A stretch of 64,000 bases of DNA, from positions 1-64,000 of the forward strand of contig JACPGE010000069.1 of NCBI GenBank assembly GCA_016182605.1, read 5' to 3'. Position 1 is the stretch's first letter. Every line of letters starts with the position of its first letter. The notes beneath the pieces were generated by a model that was given only the letters and a program-made list of their open reading frames with translations, did no database searches and had not been told where the DNA came from. This document shows, in pieces, positions 18,104-28,055 of this stretch. A program made the position numbers and the translations under genes. Source of the DNA: Candidatus Hydrogenedentota bacterium. Lineage in GTDB: Bacteria > Hydrogenedentota > Hydrogenedentia > Hydrogenedentales > JAEUWI01.

Positions 18104-20296
18104 ATGGAAGAGTTTGACCCCAAGACACGAACCATCATGCAGCCGCACCGCGGTTGCGGCGGTATTTTTTTTGCCATCATGCTCGTCATTGGCGCCGCCT
18201 GGGGCGCTGGGCTGGGCATCTTCGTCTACATCTTGAACGATGCGCAGTCGACCATCGAGGCGCTGGAAGAGTTCCGTCCCAAGATCGGCAGCAAAATCTA
18301 CTCCTCCGACGGCGTATTGCTTGGCGAGTTTTCCATCGAAGAGCGCCAGCTCGTGCCACTCAATGAAATGCCGCAACATGTGGTCAAAGCCTTTGTGGCC
18401 ACGGAAGATCACCCGTTTTACGAGCACTACGGCGTGCGGCCCGAGGCCATGGTCAGTGGTGTGCTCGAATTTTTCCGCAGCGGGCGCAGCCGTGGCGGCA
18501 GTACGATCACCCAGCAGGTGGTGCGTAATGTGGAAGACCTCAACGTGGGCCTGGAACGCACGCCCCAGCGCAAGATCCGCGAGGCGATCGTGGCGTTGCA
18601 GGTGGAGCGGGAGTTCACCAAAGACGAAATCCTGGAACTCTACTTGAACCAGATCTTCCTGGGGATCAGTGCCCACGGGGTCGAGGCGGCGGCGCGCCAG
18701 TACTTCGGCATCGGATGCCGGGACCTTACCCTGGGCGAAGCGGCGACGCTGGCCGGGCTCACGCGCGCGCCCAACGCGAACAACCCCATTTACAACCTCA
18801 AGAATGCGGAATCCCGGCGCAACGTTGTGCTGGGGCAGATGCTGGAGCATGCGTTCATCACCCAGGAAGAACTCGATGCGGCGGTGGCGGAGGATCTCGG
18901 CGAACAGGTGATTACGCCGGAGGAACGGGCGGAACGCCGGGCCCGAGGCGAGTCCGTGTGGACGCCGAACAAATTCAAGGCGCCCTATTTTGTGGAAGAG
19001 GTGCGCCAGTTCATCTATCAGCACTATCCCAAAGACGAGGTGCTCGAACAGGGCATGTCTATTTACACGACCGTGGACATGCGCCTGCAACGCGCCGCCC
19101 AAGACACCATGAAGGCCGCGCTCGACCACTTCGACAAGAACAAGATCGAGTACCTGACCAAGGTGGGCAAGGAGTCGGAATTTGTGCCCGTGAGCGGGGC
19201 GCTGATTTGCCTGGACAACCGAGCCCCCTTCCAGGGATTCGTGCGGGCGCTCGTGGGGGGGCGCGATTTTGACACGCAGAAATTCAATATGGCCACCCAG
19301 GCCAACCGGCAGGTGGGCTCCGGCATCAAGCCCTTTGTCTGGGCCGCCGCCATCAATAACGGCATGACCCCCAGCACTATCGTGGTGGATGAGCCCTTTG
19401 TCCGCCTGGATGGCGCCGGCAAGGCTTGGCGGCCGGCCAATTTCTCCGGGGATTTCCGCGGGCCCATGCCCATCCGGCATGCGCTGGAACGCTCGATCAA
19501 CATTGTTTCGATCAAACTCGTCGAGCAGATGAGTGTGCCCGTCGTGCGCTCTTTCTTCGATCGATTCGGTCTCGTGAGCGATTCGGCCCAGGGACTCACC
19601 ATTGCCTTGGGCACCCCGCAAACGACCCCGCTGAACCTGTGCGCCGCGTATTCCGTCTTCCCGAACAAGGGCGTCCGCCACGACCCGGTGATGATCACCG
19701 AGATTACCAACCGTGACGGCCTGCAACGTTACAACCACACCGAATTTGCCCGCACTCAGGAAGTGATCAGTGAAGATTTGGCCTTCGTGGTGACCAACAT
19801 GCTGAAAGGCGTCTGCAATCCCGATCCCAAGGGCGGTTTCAGCCCCACCGGGGCGGCAACGGCAAAGCTGGCGCGCCCGCGCGCCGGCAAGACCGGGACT
19901 ACCAACGAGTCCCGAGATGCCTGGTTCTGTGGGTTTACCCCCAACTACACCTGCGTCGTGTGGCTGGGCTACCCGGACTTCCGGCCTCTGGGACAGGGCC
20001 GCGATCATGATAACCGCACCTTCACCGGGGGGGGGCAATCCTGTCCGATTTGGACCACTTTTATGATTGAGGCGGAAAATGGGCTGCCGGAACGGGACTT
20101 TATCAAGCCAGAAGGGGTGAACATGTTTGGTATCGACCGCTACCGGGGAACCTTGGGCGGTTCCTATCAGGAAGCCTATCTCAAGGGCACCCAACCCCCG
20201 GCCCAATTCGTGGCGGCTACGCCAGGCGGCGAAGAAGCGCAGCTCTTGGAGACCATGCAAAGTCCGGCCAGCGGCCCGGACGACAATACGTTCTAA
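18104..20296 (+). CDS. Class A penicillin-binding protein (PBP1a-type)
   Basis: This 730-aa bifunctional peptidoglycan synthase has one N-terminal transmembrane helix (residues ~20-45). Its GT51 glycosyltransferase domain shows ATEDHPFYEHYG (catalytic Glu, about residues 92-103), GGSTITQQV and KIREAIVALQVE. The transpeptidase domain has Ser-x-x-Lys as GSGIKPF (where GSAFKP is usual), the S-x-N motif in RSINIVS, and KTG in AGKTGTTNESRDAWF. It polymerises and cross-links murein in the periplasm. It follows the VanZ-like gene closely, so the two are probably one operon. The C-terminal tail after ~680 is low-complexity. Confidence 0.95.
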   Translation: MEEFDPKTRTIMQPHRGCGGIFFAIMLVIGAAWGAGLGIFVYILNDAQSTIEALEEFRPKIGSKIYSSDGVLLGEFSIEERQLVPLNEMPQHVVKAFVATEDHPFYEHYGVRPEAMVSGVLEFFRSGRSRGGSTITQQVVRNVEDLNVGLERTPQRKIREAIVALQVEREFTKDEILELYLNQIFLGISAHGVEAAARQYFGIGCRDLTLGEAATLAGLTRAPNANNPIYNLKNAESRRNVVLGQMLEHAFITQEELDAAVAEDLGEQVITPEERAERRARGESVWTPNKFKAPYFVEEVRQFIYQHYPKDEVLEQGMSIYTTVDMRLQRAAQDTMKAALDHFDKNKIEYLTKVGKESEFVPVSGALICLDNRAPFQGFVRALVGGRDFDTQKFNMATQANRQVGSGIKPFVWAAAINNGMTPSTIVVDEPFVRLDGAGKAWRPANFSGDFRGPMPIRHALERSINIVSIKLVEQMSVPVVRSFFDRFGLVSDSAQGLTIALGTPQTTPLNLCAAYSVFPNKGVRHDPVMITEITNRDGLQRYNHTEFARTQEVISEDLAFVVTNMLKGVCNPDPKGGFSPTGAATAKLARPRAGKTGTTNESRDAWFCGFTPNYTCVVWLGYPDFRPLGQGRDHDNRTFTGGGQSCPIWTTFMIEAENGLPERDFIKPEGVNMFGIDRYRGTLGGSYQEAYLKGTQPPAQFVAATPGGEEAQLLETMQSPASGPDDNTF

Positions 20297-20371
20297 ATCT
20301 ATAAACTGTTTAGGTTTACGGGCCCTTCTGTATTGCGCCTCCACTACTGGAGTCTGGCCGGCGCAAAAAAA

Positions 20372-20406
20372 AGAGCCACCTTAACCCCATGAGGGGAGGT
20401 GGCTCT
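20372..20406 (-). terminator. Intrinsic terminator, mainly for the minus-strand microprotein gene
   Basis: AGAGCCACCT (20372-20381) and AGGTGGCTCT (20397-20406) form a 10-bp stem, with an inner CCCC/GGGG continuing it. Read on the minus strand it is followed directly by eight T residues (A-run at 20364-20371 on the plus strand). This makes it a strong terminator 25 nt after the microprotein stop codon, and possibly a bidirectional one for the PBP gene. Confidence 0.85.
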
Positions 20407-20430
20407 CTTAAGCCTTTGGACTAATCGAGA

Positions 20431-20583
20431 TTAGTCGTTGGCCGGCGGGTACGTTACGCCAATAGCGGCGAACAGCGGGGTCAACAGATTGTTGATGAGC
20501 CCGGTCAGGAATGACGTGAAGGCCAGACCGATGTTTTCAAACACGCCAGCGATGATTTCTGCGAGGCTAACTCCTAAGAACAT
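20431..20583 (-). CDS. 50-aa hydrophobic acidic microprotein (family copy A)
   Basis: I do not recognise this protein. It has 50 residues beginning MFLGVSLAEIIAG, mostly hydrophobic and helix-prone, with only acidic charges (Glu9, Glu16, Asp50) and no Lys, Arg, His or Cys. A central INNLL motif is shared with the microprotein at 26957-27124. Support for a real gene is AAGGAG about 7 nt before ATG, a canonical -35/-10 pair upstream, and a strong terminator directly downstream. It converges on the PBP gene and is divergent from the nuclease-PDZ gene. A membrane-associated or self-assembling peptide is possible; function is unknown. Confidence 0.75.
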   Translation of the reverse strand: MFLGVSLAEIIAGVFENIGLAFTSFLTGLINNLLTPLFAAIGVTYPPAND

Positions 20584-21020
20584 GGTGTTTCTCCTTAACT
20601 TGCTACTTCTTTGTTTGCCGTTATTTTCGCGCCTACTCGACGCTCCACACATAAATTACCGGGATTCCGGCAATTCGTTACACGGTACACAAGAGGCCGT
20701 TCCGCATACGACTGAACACGAGCAGATACTAGCATGGCGGGTTTTGATGTGTCAATTGTAAATAACCCGTTACGTTCCATTGTGATCCACCCGGTTTGGC
20801 CAGTGCTTGAGAGGAATTCGCAATCATCGCGCGGTCCCATCGGCCTTCCGTGGCTCCAGCTTTGCACACTTTAACACAATTTGTCAAGTGTTTAATTTTT
20901 CTACACAACCTGTAGATGTTGCCCCCTCCCCATATTGGGGTGGTTGTATGTCTCGAAATATCGGCGTAAGATGGGAGGTACAGCGGTTCTGGAAGTACAA
21001 AAAACGCGAAAGGAGGCGTC
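20584..21020. other. Intergenic region between microprotein A and nuclease-PDZ gene
   Basis: This 437-nt stretch holds no further credible gene. It contains the minus-strand promoter for the microprotein (20726-20755), leaving a 5' UTR of about 135 nt. It also has a small CTACA/TGTAG hairpin (20901-20915), and a possible plus-strand promoter TTGTAT-17-TAAGAT (20944-20972) for the nuclease gene. It is clearly AT-richer than the coding flanks. Confidence 0.6.
20726..20755 (-). promoter_or_regulatory. Sigma-70-type promoter of microprotein A
   Basis: On the minus strand, TTGACA (20755-20750) is separated by 18 nt from TAGTAT (20731-20726). The -35 is perfect and the -10 matches 4 of 6 bases. 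This is one of the best promoters in the window and drives only the 50-aa microprotein gene. Confidence 0.7.
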
Positions 21021-21926
21021 ATGTTGTACAGCAGTGGCTATCGTATCGGGTGTGCCGGATGCCTCGTCTTGGCGGGGATGGGTGCTGCAACGGGGAGTTG
21101 GGCGGAAGAAGTAATGGGAAAGGTGGTATCGATTCAGGAAGGAGACTTGCTGGGTATTCGGATTGGTGAGGGAACGCGGACCTGCCGCATTTTCGGCGTG
21201 GACTGCCCCGAGACGGGTCAAGATTATTTCGAAGAAGCCGTAAAGCAAATGCGTGCCTGGGTGGAGGACAAGTCAGTGACGCTGGAGAAGGTGGCGGTCG
21301 ATTCTCTGGGGATGGATGTGGTACGGGTGAAACTGGAAGACGGGGTTGATCTCGGCCGTTTGTCCCTCGACGAAGGGCTTGCCTGGTGGGACTATGGGAA
21401 CGCGCCAAAGGAAGCGGAATACCGCAAGGCCATGGCGCGCGCGATGGCGGCAAAAAAGGGCCTGTGGACTGCGGAAACGGTATTGTCCCCGTCGGATTAC
21501 CGCAAGAGCCACAACCTGCCTCCAGTGGTCTATACGACCGAACCCGAAGAAGCGAAATCCGAGTCCGCGCCGGTACCGGAAAAGGTGACCATCAAGGCAA
21601 AGGGCGATCCAAAGCCTGCCGCGCCCAAATTGGCAATGCCGGCGGACGCGGATTACATGGGGCTTATCATGAAGCACCAGCCCCGGATTGCGACGAATGC
21701 CGCAGGCGAGGCCATTGGACTGACGGCAACCGACATTATGGCGATTCCGGGCGCGGCCCAACTCGGATTGCAGAATGGGGATGTGGTAAGTTCAGTGAAT
21801 GGCATTGCGATCCGCAGCGAAGCCCAAGTGATGGGACTGGTGGGGCAATTACAGGGCGCGGATCGGTTGGAACTGAGTGTGATTCGCGGCGGACAGCCCA
21901 CCACAGTGGTCATCCCGCTACGCTGA
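21021..21926 (+). CDS. Secreted thermonuclease-like (SNase) protein with C-terminal PDZ
   Basis: This 301-aa protein has a signal peptide (residues 1-28, ending GSWA). A staphylococcal nuclease fold follows (about 30-158), with CRIFGVDCPETGQDY, a D-x-x-G-R-L-S-L-D-E-G-L-A-W-W stretch and AEYRKAMARAMAAKKGLW. A Pro/Lys-rich linker leads to a PDZ domain (about 215-300), with AAQLGLQNGDVVSSVNGIAI, like the GspC/HtrA type. The expected SNase catalytic Arg-Glu-Arg set is not fully evident: the usual R-x-x-x-P loop is degenerate. Nuclease activity is therefore uncertain. RBS AAAGGAGG is 5 nt upstream. It is followed by the G1P dehydrogenase gene 30 nt later. Confidence 0.8.
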   Translation: MLYSSGYRIGCAGCLVLAGMGAATGSWAEEVMGKVVSIQEGDLLGIRIGEGTRTCRIFGVDCPETGQDYFEEAVKQMRAWVEDKSVTLEKVAVDSLGMDVVRVKLEDGVDLGRLSLDEGLAWWDYGNAPKEAEYRKAMARAMAAKKGLWTAETVLSPSDYRKSHNLPPVVYTTEPEEAKSESAPVPEKVTIKAKGDPKPAAPKLAMPADADYMGLIMKHQPRIATNAAGEAIGLTATDIMAIPGAAQLGLQNGDVVSSVNGIAIRSEAQVMGLVGQLQGADRLELSVIRGGQPTTVVIPLR

Positions 21927-21956
21927 ATGACCCCAATGGGGAAGGAGTTTGCACGG

Positions 21957-23273
21957 ATGAGTCAGGCGGAAAAGTGGGGGTGGCATACCCTCGGCCAGCG
22001 GGAAGAATGCAGTTGCGGCGAGGTACATGAGCTGCCGATCGAGGCCTGCTACGTGGACGCCGGCGCAGCGCGGGAACTTGCGGAATTTGCCCGTGGCCGC
22101 GGTTGCCGCCGCGCCTTTGTGATTTCCGACGAAAACACGCGCGAGGCCGACGGTGAGCAGTTGCTCAGTTTGCTGGGCGTGAATCATCTTGCGATCGATG
22201 AGAAGATCTATCCGGGAAGCGGCTTGGAAGCGACGCAAGAACGGGCGGACGAAGTGGCGGCAGCGGGTGCGGAAGCGGATGTGTATGTCGCGATCGGCGC
22301 AGGCACGATCAGCGATCTCGCGAAGAGTGCCGGGAGCAAGCAGGGCAAGCCCGTGCTGCTCTACCCCACCGCAGCGTCGATGAACGGATATACCTCCGCC
22401 ATCGTTGCGCTCAAGGTGAACGGACTCAAACGCACCCTGCCGTGCGCGCCCGCCACGGGCATTTTTGCGAACCCCGAAGTGGTCGCCACGGCGCCGCAAC
22501 TCATGGTGGCCGCGGGCGTGGCCGACTTTCTGAGCAAGTGCTCCTCCGCGTGTGACTGGCAGGCGGCGCACATGTTGCGCGGCGGGTATTACTGCCGCCG
22601 GCCCCGCGAATTCAATGAGGGCATTCAGGAACGCCTCTTTGCCGAGTCGCTGGCGATTGGGCGCGGCGAGCCCGAGGGCATCAAGCTGGTCCTGGAAGCA
22701 TTGCTTCTTAGCGGCTTCGGCATGGTCATGGCCGGATCAAGCGCGCCCGCTTCCGGCGGCGAGCACCTGATCTCGCACTATCTCGACATGAAACATGCCC
22801 TCTACGGCTCGTCGAACGATTTGCACGGCGTTCAGGTCGGCGTGAGCACCGTGTATACGCTGGGCCTGTGGGAAAAGGTGCTTTCGCTTTCCGTGGACGC
22901 GATCGATATCGACGCGCTCGTGGCGGCGCAGCCCAGGGAAGAAGAGATACAGGAAATTATCCAGGAAGACTGGGGCGACAAGGTGGGCGCGGAAGTGCGC
23001 TCGCAATGGGCCGAAAAGCGGCTGACAGAGAAGGCGCTCCGCGAGGAACTGGCGAAGTTCCGGGAGATGCTGCCCAAACTGCGTGCGCGCCTCGGAGAGG
23101 ACCTTCAGCCCGCGAGTTTCGTAGCGCGCTGCATCGAAGAGTGCGGCGGGCCCAGCCGGCCGGAAGACATGGCCGCCTCCACGAAAGAATTCAAGAAAGG
23201 CCTGAAGCGCGCGCGGTACCTGCGCAACCGCTTTACCATTCTCGATCTCGCCGCAGAGACGGGCGTGGCATGA
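21957..23273 (+). CDS. sn-Glycerol-1-phosphate dehydrogenase (AraM/EgsA family)
   Basis: This 438-aa member of the iron-containing alcohol dehydrogenase-like superfamily reduces dihydroxyacetone phosphate to glycerol-1-phosphate, the archaeal-type lipid stereoisomer. Family features are IGAGTISDLAKSAG (nucleotide-binding, about residues 101-114), YPTAASMNGYTS, AGVADFLSK (metal-ligand Asp), SGGEHLISHYLDM (His) and LHGVQVG (His). I chose ATG 21957 because GAAGGAG lies 9 nt upstream. An in-frame ATG 30 nt earlier abuts the preceding stop and lacks an RBS. Some bacteria carry such AraM enzymes; their product may enter special lipids or glycans. Confidence 0.9.
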   Translation: MSQAEKWGWHTLGQREECSCGEVHELPIEACYVDAGAARELAEFARGRGCRRAFVISDENTREADGEQLLSLLGVNHLAIDEKIYPGSGLEATQERADEVAAAGAEADVYVAIGAGTISDLAKSAGSKQGKPVLLYPTAASMNGYTSAIVALKVNGLKRTLPCAPATGIFANPEVVATAPQLMVAAGVADFLSKCSSACDWQAAHMLRGGYYCRRPREFNEGIQERLFAESLAIGRGEPEGIKLVLEALLLSGFGMVMAGSSAPASGGEHLISHYLDMKHALYGSSNDLHGVQVGVSTVYTLGLWEKVLSLSVDAIDIDALVAAQPREEEIQEIIQEDWGDKVGAEVRSQWAEKRLTEKALREELAKFREMLPKLRARLGEDLQPASFVARCIEECGGPSRPEDMAASTKEFKKGLKRARYLRNRFTILDLAAETGVA

Positions 23274-24364
23274 GCCCGGCCGCGTTGCTGCTTTTCTGCG
23301 CGGGCGCCTTCGCCGCCGGGCAGAAGGTGGACGTGGCGGCGCACCTGCAAACCAGGCCGGACCTTGCGAAATTGCACGCGGGCTACCAGGCCGCCCTTTC
23401 CACGCGCCCCACATTGCGCGAAGCCGAGCAGGAGTATTGGGCGTTACGGGAGTTGCCCCGTTTTGCCGCGCTCGATGATGCTTTCGATGAGGCCTTGAAC
23501 GCCGATCCTGTGGCCCAATCCTTGTTCCTCCAGTTCTATGATGGCTTGCATCGCGACGGCAGCGTGCGCACCGCTTTCGAACAAATGCACTACGCCGCGA
23601 TGGAGGAAGAAAAACGTGGCCACGACATGAGCGCCGCCTTGCTCGACTGGCAGGCGAACCCGGAAGCGGCACTGCGTTTCTTCAATGCTCCGGAAGGCGC
23701 CGCGTCTCTGCCGGATTCGGTGGACGAATTGCTGCCCTACCTGCGGCGGCGTCCCGAGTTGATGGGGGAGTTGGGCGGGCTCTTCGAAGACACCGTGGCC
23801 TCGACACAGTTCGATGAGCGCATCGCCCCGTGGTGGAAACACGTGGAGCCCTTCGACAAGAAACATGGCGGCGTGTTTCAGGCCTTGACCTCCTACTTCA
23901 TCGCACGGCCCGCGGAGTTTCGCGCCTGGCACCGCCGCAACCTCCTGCTTGCAGGCGAGGCGCAGTTGCGGAGCTGGATACTCTACTGGGATCGCATGGT
24001 ACGGCGAGACCCGGTATTGCGCGTGGCGTACGGGCCGGGTTTTGTGCGTGGGACCTTGTCCGGCGAGAACCTTCAGGCCGCAAATCCCAAAGAGGCAGCG
24101 TCTGTTTGGCCGCCTCCGGAGGCGCCGCCCGCACTCGCGTCGCTCAAGATCGCCGTGCCCGCTTCCGACGCGCCGATGAAAACGGCAAAGCCAGGGCATC
24201 TGCAACGCGCACCTCGCGGCGGCATGCAGAAACCGGTGGTGACACGTCCAGAGGTAAATCGGCCGGCCATGCCCGGGAAACCCGCCATGCCCGATCGGCC
24301 CATAAAACCTGAGCGGAGCGAGAGTATCCCGAGGCCGTCCCTTCAATCGGGAGGCAGGGAGTAG
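23270..24364 (+). CDS. Secreted protein of unknown function
   Basis: I do not recognise this 364-aa protein. It begins with a signal peptide (MSPAALLLFCAGAFAAGQ) and continues as a helix-rich region (about 20-260), with many charged and aromatic residues and repeated W and DP patterns. It ends in a Pro/Lys/Arg-rich low-complexity tail (about 290-364). ATG overlaps the preceding dehydrogenase stop (ATGA), so translation is coupled and a shared role is possible. The 3' end overlaps the convergent comEC gene by 22 nt. Confidence 0.7.
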   Translation: MSPAALLLFCAGAFAAGQKVDVAAHLQTRPDLAKLHAGYQAALSTRPTLREAEQEYWALRELPRFAALDDAFDEALNADPVAQSLFLQFYDGLHRDGSVRTAFEQMHYAAMEEEKRGHDMSAALLDWQANPEAALRFFNAPEGAASLPDSVDELLPYLRRRPELMGELGGLFEDTVASTQFDERIAPWWKHVEPFDKKHGGVFQALTSYFIARPAEFRAWHRRNLLLAGEAQLRSWILYWDRMVRRDPVLRVAYGPGFVRGTLSGENLQAANPKEAASVWPPPEAPPALASLKIAVPASDAPMKTAKPGHLQRAPRGGMQKPVVTRPEVNRPAMPGKPAMPDRPIKPERSESIPRPSLQSGGRE

Positions 24365-26739
24365 CCACGGGAAACGCGCGCCGCGTCGATGTAGAACTGT
24401 TGATCGCGCATGCCGATGTGAAGTCCGCCGTGCAGGTCGGTGCGCCACAGGGGGATGCCCCGCTCGCGGTAACGGGCCGCGACCGAAGGGTGCACCGCGG
24501 CGCTCGTCCGGCGATAACGCGTGGAACAAAATGCAGCGATTGGCCGCGCGGCGTCCACCAGGGCAGGCGAACTCGATGTGCGCGAACCATGGTGGGGCGC
24601 CATCAGCAGGTCAACGGGCTCCAAGCCAGGCGCCACCAGCGATTCGGCCGCCTTTTCGATGTCCCCCGTGAGGAGGATGCGCTTGCCACCCCAATGCAAT
24701 AGACAGACCACAGACCGCTCGTTGTCGCTGTTCAATGCCGCGAGATCGGGCGGGGGATGGCGCACTTCCAGGCGAATGTTTCCCAGATCGATCGCGTCGC
24801 CCGGGCCAACCCGCCGCGTGGGTATTTCGTATGCAGCGGCTGCTTCGAGCAGTTCCGTTTCGAGCCCGGAATCCGAAACGTAGCTCGAAAGCAACAGTTC
24901 TTTGACCGCCACGGTTTCGAGCAACGATGGCGCCCCGCCAATGTGATCGCGATCCGGATGCGTGACGATCAGATGATCAAGCGAGGTGATGCCGCGTGAG
25001 AGCAGGAAGGGGACGACCGCGCGATCCGCCATGTTGATGTACTCGGAACGATCCGCCGTGTCGATGAGCACGGTTTTCCCCGAGCGCGACGTGAGGAGCA
25101 TGGCGTCTCCGTGACCCACATCGAGCACAAAAAGCGCGTTGTCGAGGTAGCGCCAGTTCCACGTCAGGATGGAGAAGAGGAGCAGGGCGCACACGGCCGC
25201 CGCGCCCTTGCGCCACCACGCAGATTGGTGGAGGATCGCGAGGAGTACGGCAACGGCAAGCAGATAGGCGGCAGCGGCAAGCCAGGTGGGGCTCACCACG
25301 GTAATCCAGGTCCAGCGTTGCGAGGCGATGCCAAAGACGATGCCCTGGAGCAGCCACGTGGGCAGCAGCAATGCGCTTCCAAAAATAAGCGCCGCGGGCG
25401 GCAGAATGATGCTGCAGATCGCAACGGCAAGGCAGAGCCACAGCATCACTGTGACGATAGGAATCGCCGCAAGATTCGCCAGGGTGGCGGTCCAGGCGAC
25501 AAGGTGAAAGGAGTGCGCCAAGAAGGGAAAGGGCAACAGTTGCACACCGATCGAACCGGCGGCCGTACTTCGTGTCCACACAGGCAGCCAGGTGAGGCGC
25601 TGGCCCAACGGCGCGGCAAACAGCAGGATGGACGCCACACTCCCGAAGGAAAGGATAAAGGAGGTGTCGTTCACGTTGGCGGGGTTGATAACGAGGAAGA
25701 AGAGCGCCGCCATACTGATGGCCGTGGGCGCGTCGGGTTCGCGATCGAGAAAGTCCGCCAGCAGATACAGGGTGAGCATGGCGGCGGATCGAATGCTGGG
25801 GATCTGCGCGCCCGCAACAAGCGCAAAAAGCCAGACGAGCGTCATGCCTGCGAGTATGCGCCGCTTCCGGTTGCGCATCAGGGGGGTCAACAGCATATCG
25901 AGCGAGAGAAACACGATGGCCACATGCACACCCGAAACCGAAAGCAGGTGCGTCGTGCCAGAGTACTTGAACTGGTTTTGCTCTGTGTAGGGAATGGCAT
26001 TGCGCGCGCCCAGCCACACCGCGATTGCGTAACCCTGCGCCGGCTGCGGGATGCACTCCTGGAAGCGGTCTGCCTGCCACTGGCGGAAACGCGAAGTCCA
26101 GTATCCGGCAGACCGGCGGGACTCCGCGCCCGGGCTCAACTGATCGCCCGAGCAGCGGATCTGTGCTTCGATTCCCGCGCCACGGAGGTCGTCCTCCCAC
26201 GATCGCGAGCCCGGATTCACAAAATCCAGCGCGAAATGAAGCCGGCCTTGAACCTGTATGGTCTGTCCCGTGCTCAGCCGGCCTGATGGCCGCGACCATC
26301 GCACGAGCACATGGCCCAATGGTGGGGCGCTTTCCCCCTGCGGCACAGACCGCAATAGCTCCATGGGAAACGAAACGTATTCCTCGCCCGCCAAGTGAAC
26401 CGGAGCCTGAAGAACCCTCCCTTCCACGGACACCGTTTCATTGTCGTGTGCGGTGGCATACTGCGCCAGCGCGCGGGAAGGCGGATAGGCCACATGAAGC
26501 GCCCCATTGAAGAGGGCCAGCGCGCCAAAGGCCATGGCGAGCGCTGCGTGCTGACGGAACGGCATGCCCCGGCGCCGGTAGCAGGCGAGTGCTGCGGCCA
26601 GGCATGCGGCCGACAACAGGCCCCCTGCACCAGCAGGCATGCCCCGCGCCACAAGCAGCCCCAGCGTATAGGCGGCTGCGGCCCACATCAACGGTCGGTC
26701 CACGGCAAGTATCCCCAAGCCCCAATGGCAGGCCCGCAT
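24343..26739 (-). CDS. comEC: ComEC/Rec2-family DNA uptake channel
   Basis: This 798-aa membrane protein has three parts. The N-terminal region holds hydrophobic segments and a soluble DUF4131-like domain (about residues 1-215). A central Competence domain has many transmembrane helices (about 230-500, with GTTHLLSVSGVHVAIV). The C-terminal metallo-beta-lactamase domain (about 530-785) has VLDVGHGDAMLL, THPDRDHIGG and MAPHHGSRTSSS. ComEC transports single-stranded DNA across the inner membrane in natural transformation, and the MBL domain is thought to degrade one strand. Length and order are typical. Pseudopilin genes lie about 0.8 kb away, but no full competence pilus is encoded here. Confidence 0.93.
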   Translation of the reverse strand: MRACHWGLGILAVDRPLMWAAAAYTLGLLVARGMPAGAGGLLSAACLAAALACYRRRGMPFRQHAALAMAFGALALFNGALHVAYPPSRALAQYATAHDNETVSVEGRVLQAPVHLAGEEYVSFPMELLRSVPQGESAPPLGHVLVRWSRPSGRLSTGQTIQVQGRLHFALDFVNPGSRSWEDDLRGAGIEAQIRCSGDQLSPGAESRRSAGYWTSRFRQWQADRFQECIPQPAQGYAIAVWLGARNAIPYTEQNQFKYSGTTHLLSVSGVHVAIVFLSLDMLLTPLMRNRKRRILAGMTLVWLFALVAGAQIPSIRSAAMLTLYLLADFLDREPDAPTAISMAALFFLVINPANVNDTSFILSFGSVASILLFAAPLGQRLTWLPVWTRSTAAGSIGVQLLPFPFLAHSFHLVAWTATLANLAAIPIVTVMLWLCLAVAICSIILPPAALIFGSALLLPTWLLQGIVFGIASQRWTWITVVSPTWLAAAAYLLAVAVLLAILHQSAWWRKGAAAVCALLLFSILTWNWRYLDNALFVLDVGHGDAMLLTSRSGKTVLIDTADRSEYINMADRAVVPFLLSRGITSLDHLIVTHPDRDHIGGAPSLLETVAVKELLLSSYVSDSGLETELLEAAAAYEIPTRRVGPGDAIDLGNIRLEVRHPPPDLAALNSDNERSVVCLLHWGGKRILLTGDIEKAAESLVAPGLEPVDLLMAPHHGSRTSSSPALVDAARPIAAFCSTRYRRTSAAVHPSVAARYRERGIPLWRTDLHGGLHIGMRDQQFYIDAARVSRGYSLPPD

Positions 26740-26814
26740 GAATACACAGTGTAGTTACCGTGGCATACTAGTCAGGTCAACGAGGCCGTTCAAGCCCTTC
26801 GAAGGATGGAACAA

Positions 26815-26960
26815 GCTAGCAGCCCGTTGCAAAACTCGAACGCGGGCTGCGAACGGCCCTCTTGTCCGAACTCTGCGTTGCGAGACCTTGAAAATAGCCG
26901 TATTTCCTGCGGTCTCACGCCTTGATTTCGGCCAAGATTGCTCGTTCTCGCCGTCGCTAG
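26815..26960. repeat. MITE-like palindromic segment
   Basis: About 146 bp bounded by CTAGC (26816-26820) and GCTAG (26956-26960) in inverted orientation. It contains two inner hairpins, GCAGCCCG/CGGGCTGC (26819-26826 with 26843-26850) and GAGACC/GGTCTC (26882-26887 with 26911-26916). It codes for nothing convincing. Short palindromic non-coding elements with such ends are often non-autonomous mobile repeats. No second copy exists in the window, so this is a candidate only. Its right end supplies the stop codon of the adjacent microprotein. Confidence 0.4.
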
Positions 26961-27124
26961 AGGATTGAGGGAATGGTGATTGCTTCACCCGTGATCAATT
27001 GCACGAAGAACAATGCGACCAGGTTGAGGACAGAATAGACGCTGCCCAATACGTTGTTGATGGGAATGGTGATGAGCTGACTGACGATGAGTTCGTAGAA
27101 CTGCTGAAAGACATCGATGATCAT
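26957..27124 (-). CDS. 55-aa hydrophobic acidic microprotein (family copy B)
   Basis: This unrecognised 55-aa protein begins MIIDVFQQFYELIV and is almost wholly hydrophobic, with acidic residues only (Asp4, Glu11, Glu46) and no Lys, Arg, His or Cys. It shares an INN[LV]L core and overall size with the microprotein at 20431-20583, so I treat them as distant members of one family. AGGAG lies about 9 nt before ATG. The TAG stop falls inside the end of the palindromic segment 26815-26960, so the native C-terminus may have been altered. It is divergent from gspI. Function is unknown. Confidence 0.68.
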   Translation of the reverse strand: MIIDVFQQFYELIVSQLITIPINNVLGSVYSVLNLVALFFVQLITGEAITIPSIL

Positions 27125-27387
27125 GGGCGAGGCTCCTATGGGAAGGCACGGGGTCTGGGGGATATATAGCAGCCTTTGTGCGCCAGAGTCCAGTGGCCCG
27201 GCCTTTAGGGATCGTGTGGGGTCCCCAAAAATTGTCAAGTGAATACCCTTGACCGGCGCGGCGTATGTGGTATACGCTGATAGAAATGCTACCCCATAAT
27301 GAGAATGCGCGGCATTTGCCAGTCACATGGGGCCACTTATCCCGAGCGAACGTTGAAGAATCCGAATTTTTACCTTTTTTAACGTTG

Positions 27388-27518: not shown

Positions 27519-28055
27519 ATGGCAGCGGTAATCGGGAACCGACTAAAGGCACAGACCTTTTCCCGGCAGGGGTTTAGCCTGCTGGAGCTTTTGGTTGCCC
27601 TGGCGGTCCTGGGGGTGGCCACCACCATCTTTATCCGCCTCTATTCCTTGTCCACCGATTTTGCCCGGGTTGCACGCAACCGCACGGTGGCCGCAGCCAT
27701 TGCGGAGGAGCAACTCGCCCGGCTGCGTATGAATCCCGATCAATTTCAATGGCAGATTCCGGAACCGGTATCCTCGGAAGTCTTTGGCATCCTTGTGCCG
27801 GAAGAGCCGCCCGCCGGGAATGAAGCTGCACCGGGCAAGGCCATGCCACCAGAACTCAAGGCCAAGGAAGACACGGAAACCCTCTATCAGAGCTTTCGAT
27901 GGAAGGCTTTTGGCCGCATCCCGGAACCCAATGCGGCATTTGTGGAGGTAACCGTGGCCGTGTATTGGACGCAATCTGGCAGGCCGGAGTCGCTGGCACT
28001 GTCCACCGCACTCATGCGGCGTGCCGTTCCCGTTCCGGCAGGAGGGCAGGGCTGA
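27519..28055 (+). CDS. Type II secretion minor pseudopilin GspI-like
   Basis: This 178-aa prepilin-like protein has a class III signal: RQG then FSLLELLVALAVLGV, with cleavage expected after Gly18 and Glu at +5 of the mature protein. The rest is a periplasmic domain with a conserved-looking EEQLARLRMNP helix, like GspI. It would join GspJ and GspK in the pseudopilus tip. RBS GGAAGGAG ends 4 nt before ATG. Its stop overlaps the next ATG (TGATG type). GspH/FimT-like prepilins are an alternative assignment. Confidence 0.8.
   Translation: MAAVIGNRLKAQTFSRQGFSLLELLVALAVLGVATTIFIRLYSLSTDFARVARNRTVAAAIAEEQLARLRMNPDQFQWQIPEPVSSEVFGILVPEEPPAGNEAAPGKAMPPELKAKEDTETLYQSFRWKAFGRIPEPNAAFVEVTVAVYWTQSGRPESLALSTALMRRAVPVPAGGQG

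Follow-up and report, generated by a model that had tools for sequence, protein, structure and literature searches.

Beta-type phenol-soluble modulins are leaderless amphipathic helices of ~45 amino acids that act outside the cell (PMC5442197). ECF sigma factors are typified by promoters with AAC at -35 and CGT at -10, by autoregulation and by an anti-sigma gene transcribed together with their own (PMC8103513), and the published consensus promoter of Bacillus subtilis SigW is TGAAAC-N16/17-CGTA (PMC2375139). Here, two microprotein genes, designated A and B, encoded on a 64-kb stretch of Hydrogenedentota DNA (64,000 nucleotides, hereafter the window) were compared with these systems, with type I toxins and with the comEC loci of naturally transformable bacteria. 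We know of no acidic microproteins among the SigW targets and of no microprotein like B among the described neighbours of comEC, such as comEA. A limited search of the open literature returned nothing on A or B. The reading that we prefer, with a probability of roughly one half for the whole of it, is that A is a membrane helix induced by an ECF sigma factor and that B is a membrane protein linked to ComEC.

Identification of two microprotein genes

The two open reading frames are as follows.

20431-20583, minus strand: microprotein A, 50 amino acids (MFLGVSLAEIIAGVFENIGLAFTSFLTGLINNLLTPLFAAIGVTYPPAND), net charge -3; identified by ORF call, homologues, dN/dS and structural model
26957-27124, minus strand: microprotein B, 55 amino acids (MIIDVFQQFYELIVSQLITIPINNVLGSVYSVLNLVALFFVQLITGEAITIPSIL), net charge -3; identified by ORF call, family profiles, dN/dS and structural model

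Both had been reported in a preliminary description of this DNA as free of Lys, Arg, His and Cys and preceded by good ribosome sites, and this was confirmed; each has three acidic residues and a GGAG-type ribosome site. A filter for ORFs of 45–90 amino acids that lack Lys, Arg, His and Cys, are at least 50% hydrophobic and follow a ribosome site retained only A and B in the window and nothing in 30 Markov-shuffled windows. The unusual charge bias of the two products is real.

Homologues were sought in 68 Hydrogenedentota genomes of one order. Single-sequence searches in 60 relatives already separated A from B, with E-values for B down to 1.5e-7, and the profile searches for A and B gave E-values of 1e-12 to 1e-22, among which the members used to build the profiles match by construction. 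The dN/dS ratios were 0.08–0.47 across all non-saturated homologue pairs. The preliminary description had named missing homologues with a preserved reading frame (dN/dS near 1) and missing transcripts as grounds for rejecting the genes; the homologues and the low ratios found instead indicate that A and B are real genes. Neither showed a significant match to Pfam, PHROGs or PDB chains, and their NCBIfam matches were far below the cut-off.

The same description had placed A and B in one putative family, which was rejected. Alignment of the two profiles with hhalign gave a probability of 0.6% over a single aligned column, and the two differ in neighbours, promoters and predicted folds. The INN-[LV]-L core on which the grouping had drawn is present in both sequences; INN belongs to a conserved block in the B family, whereas members of the A family do not preserve it, and its presence in both is incidental. 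Judged from their sequences, A and B are thus conserved protein-coding genes under purifying selection that belong to two distinct, unrelated families.

Organisation of the A cassette

The features surrounding A in the window are listed below.

20590..20596, minus strand: ribosome site of A, AAGGAGA, which also precedes most homologues
20365..20407, minus strand: Rho-independent terminator of A, a strong hairpin followed by T8 (fold z -4.4)
20657..20682, minus strand: ECF-sigma-type promoter, TGTAACG-N15-GGTA, the sole match in the window, with an expected transcription start near 20650
20726..20755, minus strand: sigma-70-like promoter upstream of A, TTGACA-N18-TAGTAT with a TG
21021..21926, plus strand: nuclease-PDZ gene (SNase and PDZ domains), divergent from A
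18104..20296, plus strand: class A penicillin-binding protein gene (transglycosylase and transpeptidase), convergent with A

The consensus-like promoter and textbook terminator previously ascribed to A were both recovered, as the TTGACA-N18-TAGTAT box and the hairpin with a z of -4.4. An alternative start of A at 20652 (73 amino acids) was discarded, as it has no ribosome site, would coincide with the expected transcription start and disagrees with the homologues, whose starts match 20583.

Profile searches revealed A homologues of 36–50 amino acids in most f1 genomes and in G013, and weaker relatives in G055, G049, G047, G017 and G034. Tandem pairs were found in G006 (at two places) and in G055, and dN/dS was 0.18–0.34 for the f1 pairs. 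The A family has no constant neighbours; the only recurring ones are pheA in genus g2 and SNase-PDZ in G006, the single relative in which a nuclease-PDZ gene likewise lies divergent from an A gene. In f11 genomes (L226, L229, L230 and L232), paired small ORFs of 38 and 41–42 amino acids that are weakly related to A were observed, the second of which starts with MLN and ends with DPL[AT]; these relatives have no ECF-type motif.

The ECF-type motif was spotted by eye in A leaders placed side by side and was tested afterwards. Ten of 12 A loci carry TGTAAC[GA]-N15-[GTC]GTA at -98 to -106 from the start codon, against a background of 0.006 per 260 nt of fetched DNA in which the positives themselves are counted. 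The two loci without the motif at its usual place are both members of tandem pairs, and G003 carries an additional copy at -177. A comparable TTGAC-N-TA box was present upstream in six of the 12 loci. The TGTAACG...GTA blocks had at first suggested a structured RNA or riboswitch in the leader; Rfam returned nothing relevant, and a spacing held at 15 nt while the intervening bases vary fits a promoter rather than a riboswitch. The leaders of A in genus g2 (L117, L118 and L119) have GCGCTCTGGAGGCGC in common, which may form a small hairpin after the promoter and before the ribosome site. Regulation of A by an ECF-type promoter is fairly well supported.

The AlphaFold2 model of A consists of one helix (residues 7–41, mean pLDDT 81), and the helices of the A family are hydrophobic and amphipathic, with moments of 0.40–0.57, so that surface-lying, membrane-spanning and self-assembling arrangements would all be possible. 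The membrane-permeabilising, self-assembling or signalling roles first put forward for both products are likewise possible for A. A related reading is that the A family comprises secreted surfactant, structural or signal peptides resembling beta-type phenol-soluble modulins and acting outside the cell, as the size, the amphipathic helix, the lack of a signal peptide and the tandem copies would suggest. However, no dedicated ABC exporter was found as a constant neighbour, and an ECF-type promoter would better fit a response of the cell envelope; we consider secretion of A unlikely.

Linkage of B with comEC

The features surrounding B in the window are listed below.

27132..27138, minus strand: ribosome site of B, TAGGAG
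24343..26703, minus strand: comEC, encoding the DNA-uptake channel and located downstream of B (PF13567, PF03772, PF00753)
26704..26956, minus strand: B–comEC spacer, which folds into unusually stable hairpins (z -3.85) and exceeds the length found in most relatives
27519..28055, plus strand: gspI-like pseudopilin gene, divergent from B

The start of comEC in the window was placed at the GTG that yields V/M-DRPLMW, the longest ORF beginning at 26739. The preliminary description had noted the divergent gspI correctly but had missed comEC, which lies downstream on the same strand. Its observation that A and B are both divergent from envelope or secretion genes holds in the window; this arrangement is not the conserved context, which is comEC for B and the promoter-terminator cassette for A.

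Profile searches (E<=0.01) detected the B family in 29 of the 68 genomes, spread over f1, f2, f3, f5, f6, f8, f9, f10 and a single f11 genome, and the gene 3′ of its members typically begins with M[NK]RPL[VL]W, that is, comEC. comEC itself was found in 65 of the 68 genomes, and its upstream region was examined for B in 40 of them. Full-length B genes numbered 28, and 27 of them immediately precede comEC in the same orientation, 6–433 nt from it (median ~51, usually within 120 nt). B does not adjoin comEC in G056 and G054, and in G008 the B copy is partly masked. Further K/R-poor ORFs, too divergent for the B profile, occupy the same place in G010, G033, G048, G052 and G042. In most of f11, f7 and f4, and in G002, no B gene precedes comEC, which indicates that ComEC does not generally need B. 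At comEC loci outside the phylum the B profile gave no match below E 0.9. When named genomes were searched with comEC, the nearest records were for the most part Candidatus Hydrogenedentota. The comEC genes in records titled Rhodothermaeota (L239) and Nitrospiraceae (L243) were as near to the query as those of Hydrogenedentota, and these titles are probably wrong. A search of the available DNA of the window's own genome revealed no second copy of the spacer that would mark it as a repeat element.

The B family has a conserved core, IP-x-[ND]N-x-L-x3-Y-x3-N, and contains 0–3 Lys plus Arg residues per protein, so the lack of positive charge is a tendency and not a rule. The AlphaFold model of B has an amphipathic helix (residues 2–19) and a hydrophobic helix (residues 25–45), at modest confidence (pLDDT 70). 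The ECF-type motif was found upstream of none of 14 B or B-like genes, and control of B by the same ECF promoter was rejected.

The position of B just before comEC would also suit a short upstream reading frame that regulates comEC through its translation and whose product is not a working protein, and the very variable sequence (32% mean column identity in the family) and the structured spacer in the window agree with this. The conserved core, a dN/dS of 0.12–0.41 among the non-saturated pairs and the steady two-helix hydrophobicity nevertheless speak for a working product, and a leader frame appears improbable to us.

The candidate ECF sigma factor and further microproteins

A search of the order with the pattern TGTAACGTTT-N13-GTA returned 15 matches, compared to four for the reversed control. 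One of these, in G019 (L296:1502-3026), precedes an ECF sigma gene; a second gene lies directly 3′ of it, which has no Pfam match and is possibly an anti-sigma factor. Clear orthologues of the ECF factor, with 41–64% identity, were found in most of the 68 genomes, including that of the window (C62:88454-89020), and sigma-70 regions 2 and 4 were confirmed with Pfam in one orthologue and in a G006 paralogue. The best NCBIfam equivalogs include SigW, below the cut-off. Upstream of 28 of 30 ECF orthologues TGT[AG]A[CT][AG]-N15-[GTC]GTA was present, against ~0.001 in Markov-shuffled regions. Control of A by this phylum-wide, sigma-W-like ECF factor is likely on these grounds; the -35 element is mostly TGTGATG before the ECF genes versus TGTAACG before A, and these genomes each encode several ECF factors (nine above threshold in that of the window), so that the acting sigma factor is not proven.

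Promoter matches, chosen without protein homology, led to acidic microproteins in G003, G044, G050 and the window's own genome. The microprotein of G044 and G050 has 44 amino acids (MNFINTILCW...CGEE), no Lys, Arg or His and two Cys, with a dN/dS of 0.08, and that of G003 has 34 amino acids (MFDIFDD...FFD). In the window's own genome the pattern gave 12 matches, compared to eight in the control, and the 12 include A, the ECF gene and a 46-amino-acid microprotein at C1:92589, which has one Lys and its own terminator and is convergent with a thioredoxin reductase-like gene. The A-type set in Hydrogenedentota consists of acidic helical microproteins of 34–50 amino acids in stand-alone cassettes, which are sometimes tandem.

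Matches of other kinds were also observed. In the window's own genome the pattern occurs before LpxA-like and SIS-domain genes (L335 C50:10940 and L334 C35:44537), which may be envelope genes or may be there by chance. It also precedes peptides of 39–61 amino acids at L301 (about 1626-1802), L297, L294 and L285, which start with MK[HR][IM], have many charged residues unlike A, and are possibly a second class of targets.

In G006 a tandem A pair is immediately preceded by an ECF paralogue. This adjacency, together with the promoter class that A has in common with the ECF gene, could be taken to mean that A feeds back on the ECF system by binding the anti-sigma factor or a membrane protease that cleaves it; such linkage was found only once, however, and the A genes are numerous, differ in sequence and are scattered over unlinked sites, which makes this a decidedly doubtful reading. 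Least probable is that A acts as a type I toxin, depolarising the membrane of its own cell unless restrained by an antisense RNA. A is indeed small, hydrophobic, free-standing, duplicated in tandem and provided with a long leader, but it appears to be under ECF control, lacks positive charges and is spread across genera with a dN/dS of 0.18–0.34. A scan of its region for consensus promoters gave only A's own and no divergent or antisense one.

Proposed roles of A and B

For A, the reading as an ECF-induced membrane helix would work as follows. The cassette comprises housekeeping-like and ECF-type promoters, a leader of ~65–73 nt, an acidic helix of 36–50 amino acids and a terminator, and it would be induced under envelope stress by the phylum-wide, self-regulated ECF factor. 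The helix may then insert in the membrane or lie on it, perhaps as oligomers, and could alter the packing of the membrane or modulate one of its proteins. B would be a small membrane protein whose N-terminal helix is amphipathic and whose other helix is hydrophobic; encoded directly upstream of comEC, it is probably produced together with it and may bind the ComEC DNA-uptake channel or aid insertion of the channel. The ECF promoter motif, its occurrence before the ECF gene and the linkage of B with comEC are established at the level of genome comparison. A wider proposal, that Hydrogenedentota have several families of K/R-poor, acidic, helical microproteins in cassettes of their own, all induced by one envelope-stress ECF sigma factor and protecting or remodelling their own membrane as an acidic counterpart of cationic membrane peptides, is offered tentatively.

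For two microprotein families without significant relatives in the annotation libraries used, these results supply a context that can be tested. The promoter of A provides a route to sequence-divergent microproteins through regulation rather than homology, which worked in three other genomes as well as in that of the window, and it points to the likely promoter sequence of a sigma factor that an uncultured phylum has conserved. The finding of B raises the possibility that a small membrane protein partners the ComEC channel in Hydrogenedentota.

Comparison with known systems

A resembles the beta-type phenol-soluble modulins of staphylococci in its size (~45 amino acids in the modulins) and amphipathic helix, in having no signal peptide and in occurring in more than one copy; it differs from them in having no exporter neighbour, in its Gram-negative-type host with an LpxA-like gene and in its ECF-type promoter, and no sequence relation is claimed. 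A and B are similar to type I toxins and other small hydrophobic peptides in size and hydrophobicity, whereas they lack positive charges and are conserved across genera, and A has an ECF-type promoter. Compared with the SigW regulon of B. subtilis, the A system belongs to another phylum, has a different -35 and a candidate sigma factor whose SigW matches in NCBIfam are below the cut-off, whereas the promoter layout of A (TGTAAC-N16-GGTA) matches and the candidate has ECF regions 2 and 4 and the motif before its own gene. With respect to the comEC loci of naturally transformable bacteria, the gene that B precedes is a standard comEC (PF03772, PF13567 and PF00753), whereas B itself matched nothing in the libraries used.
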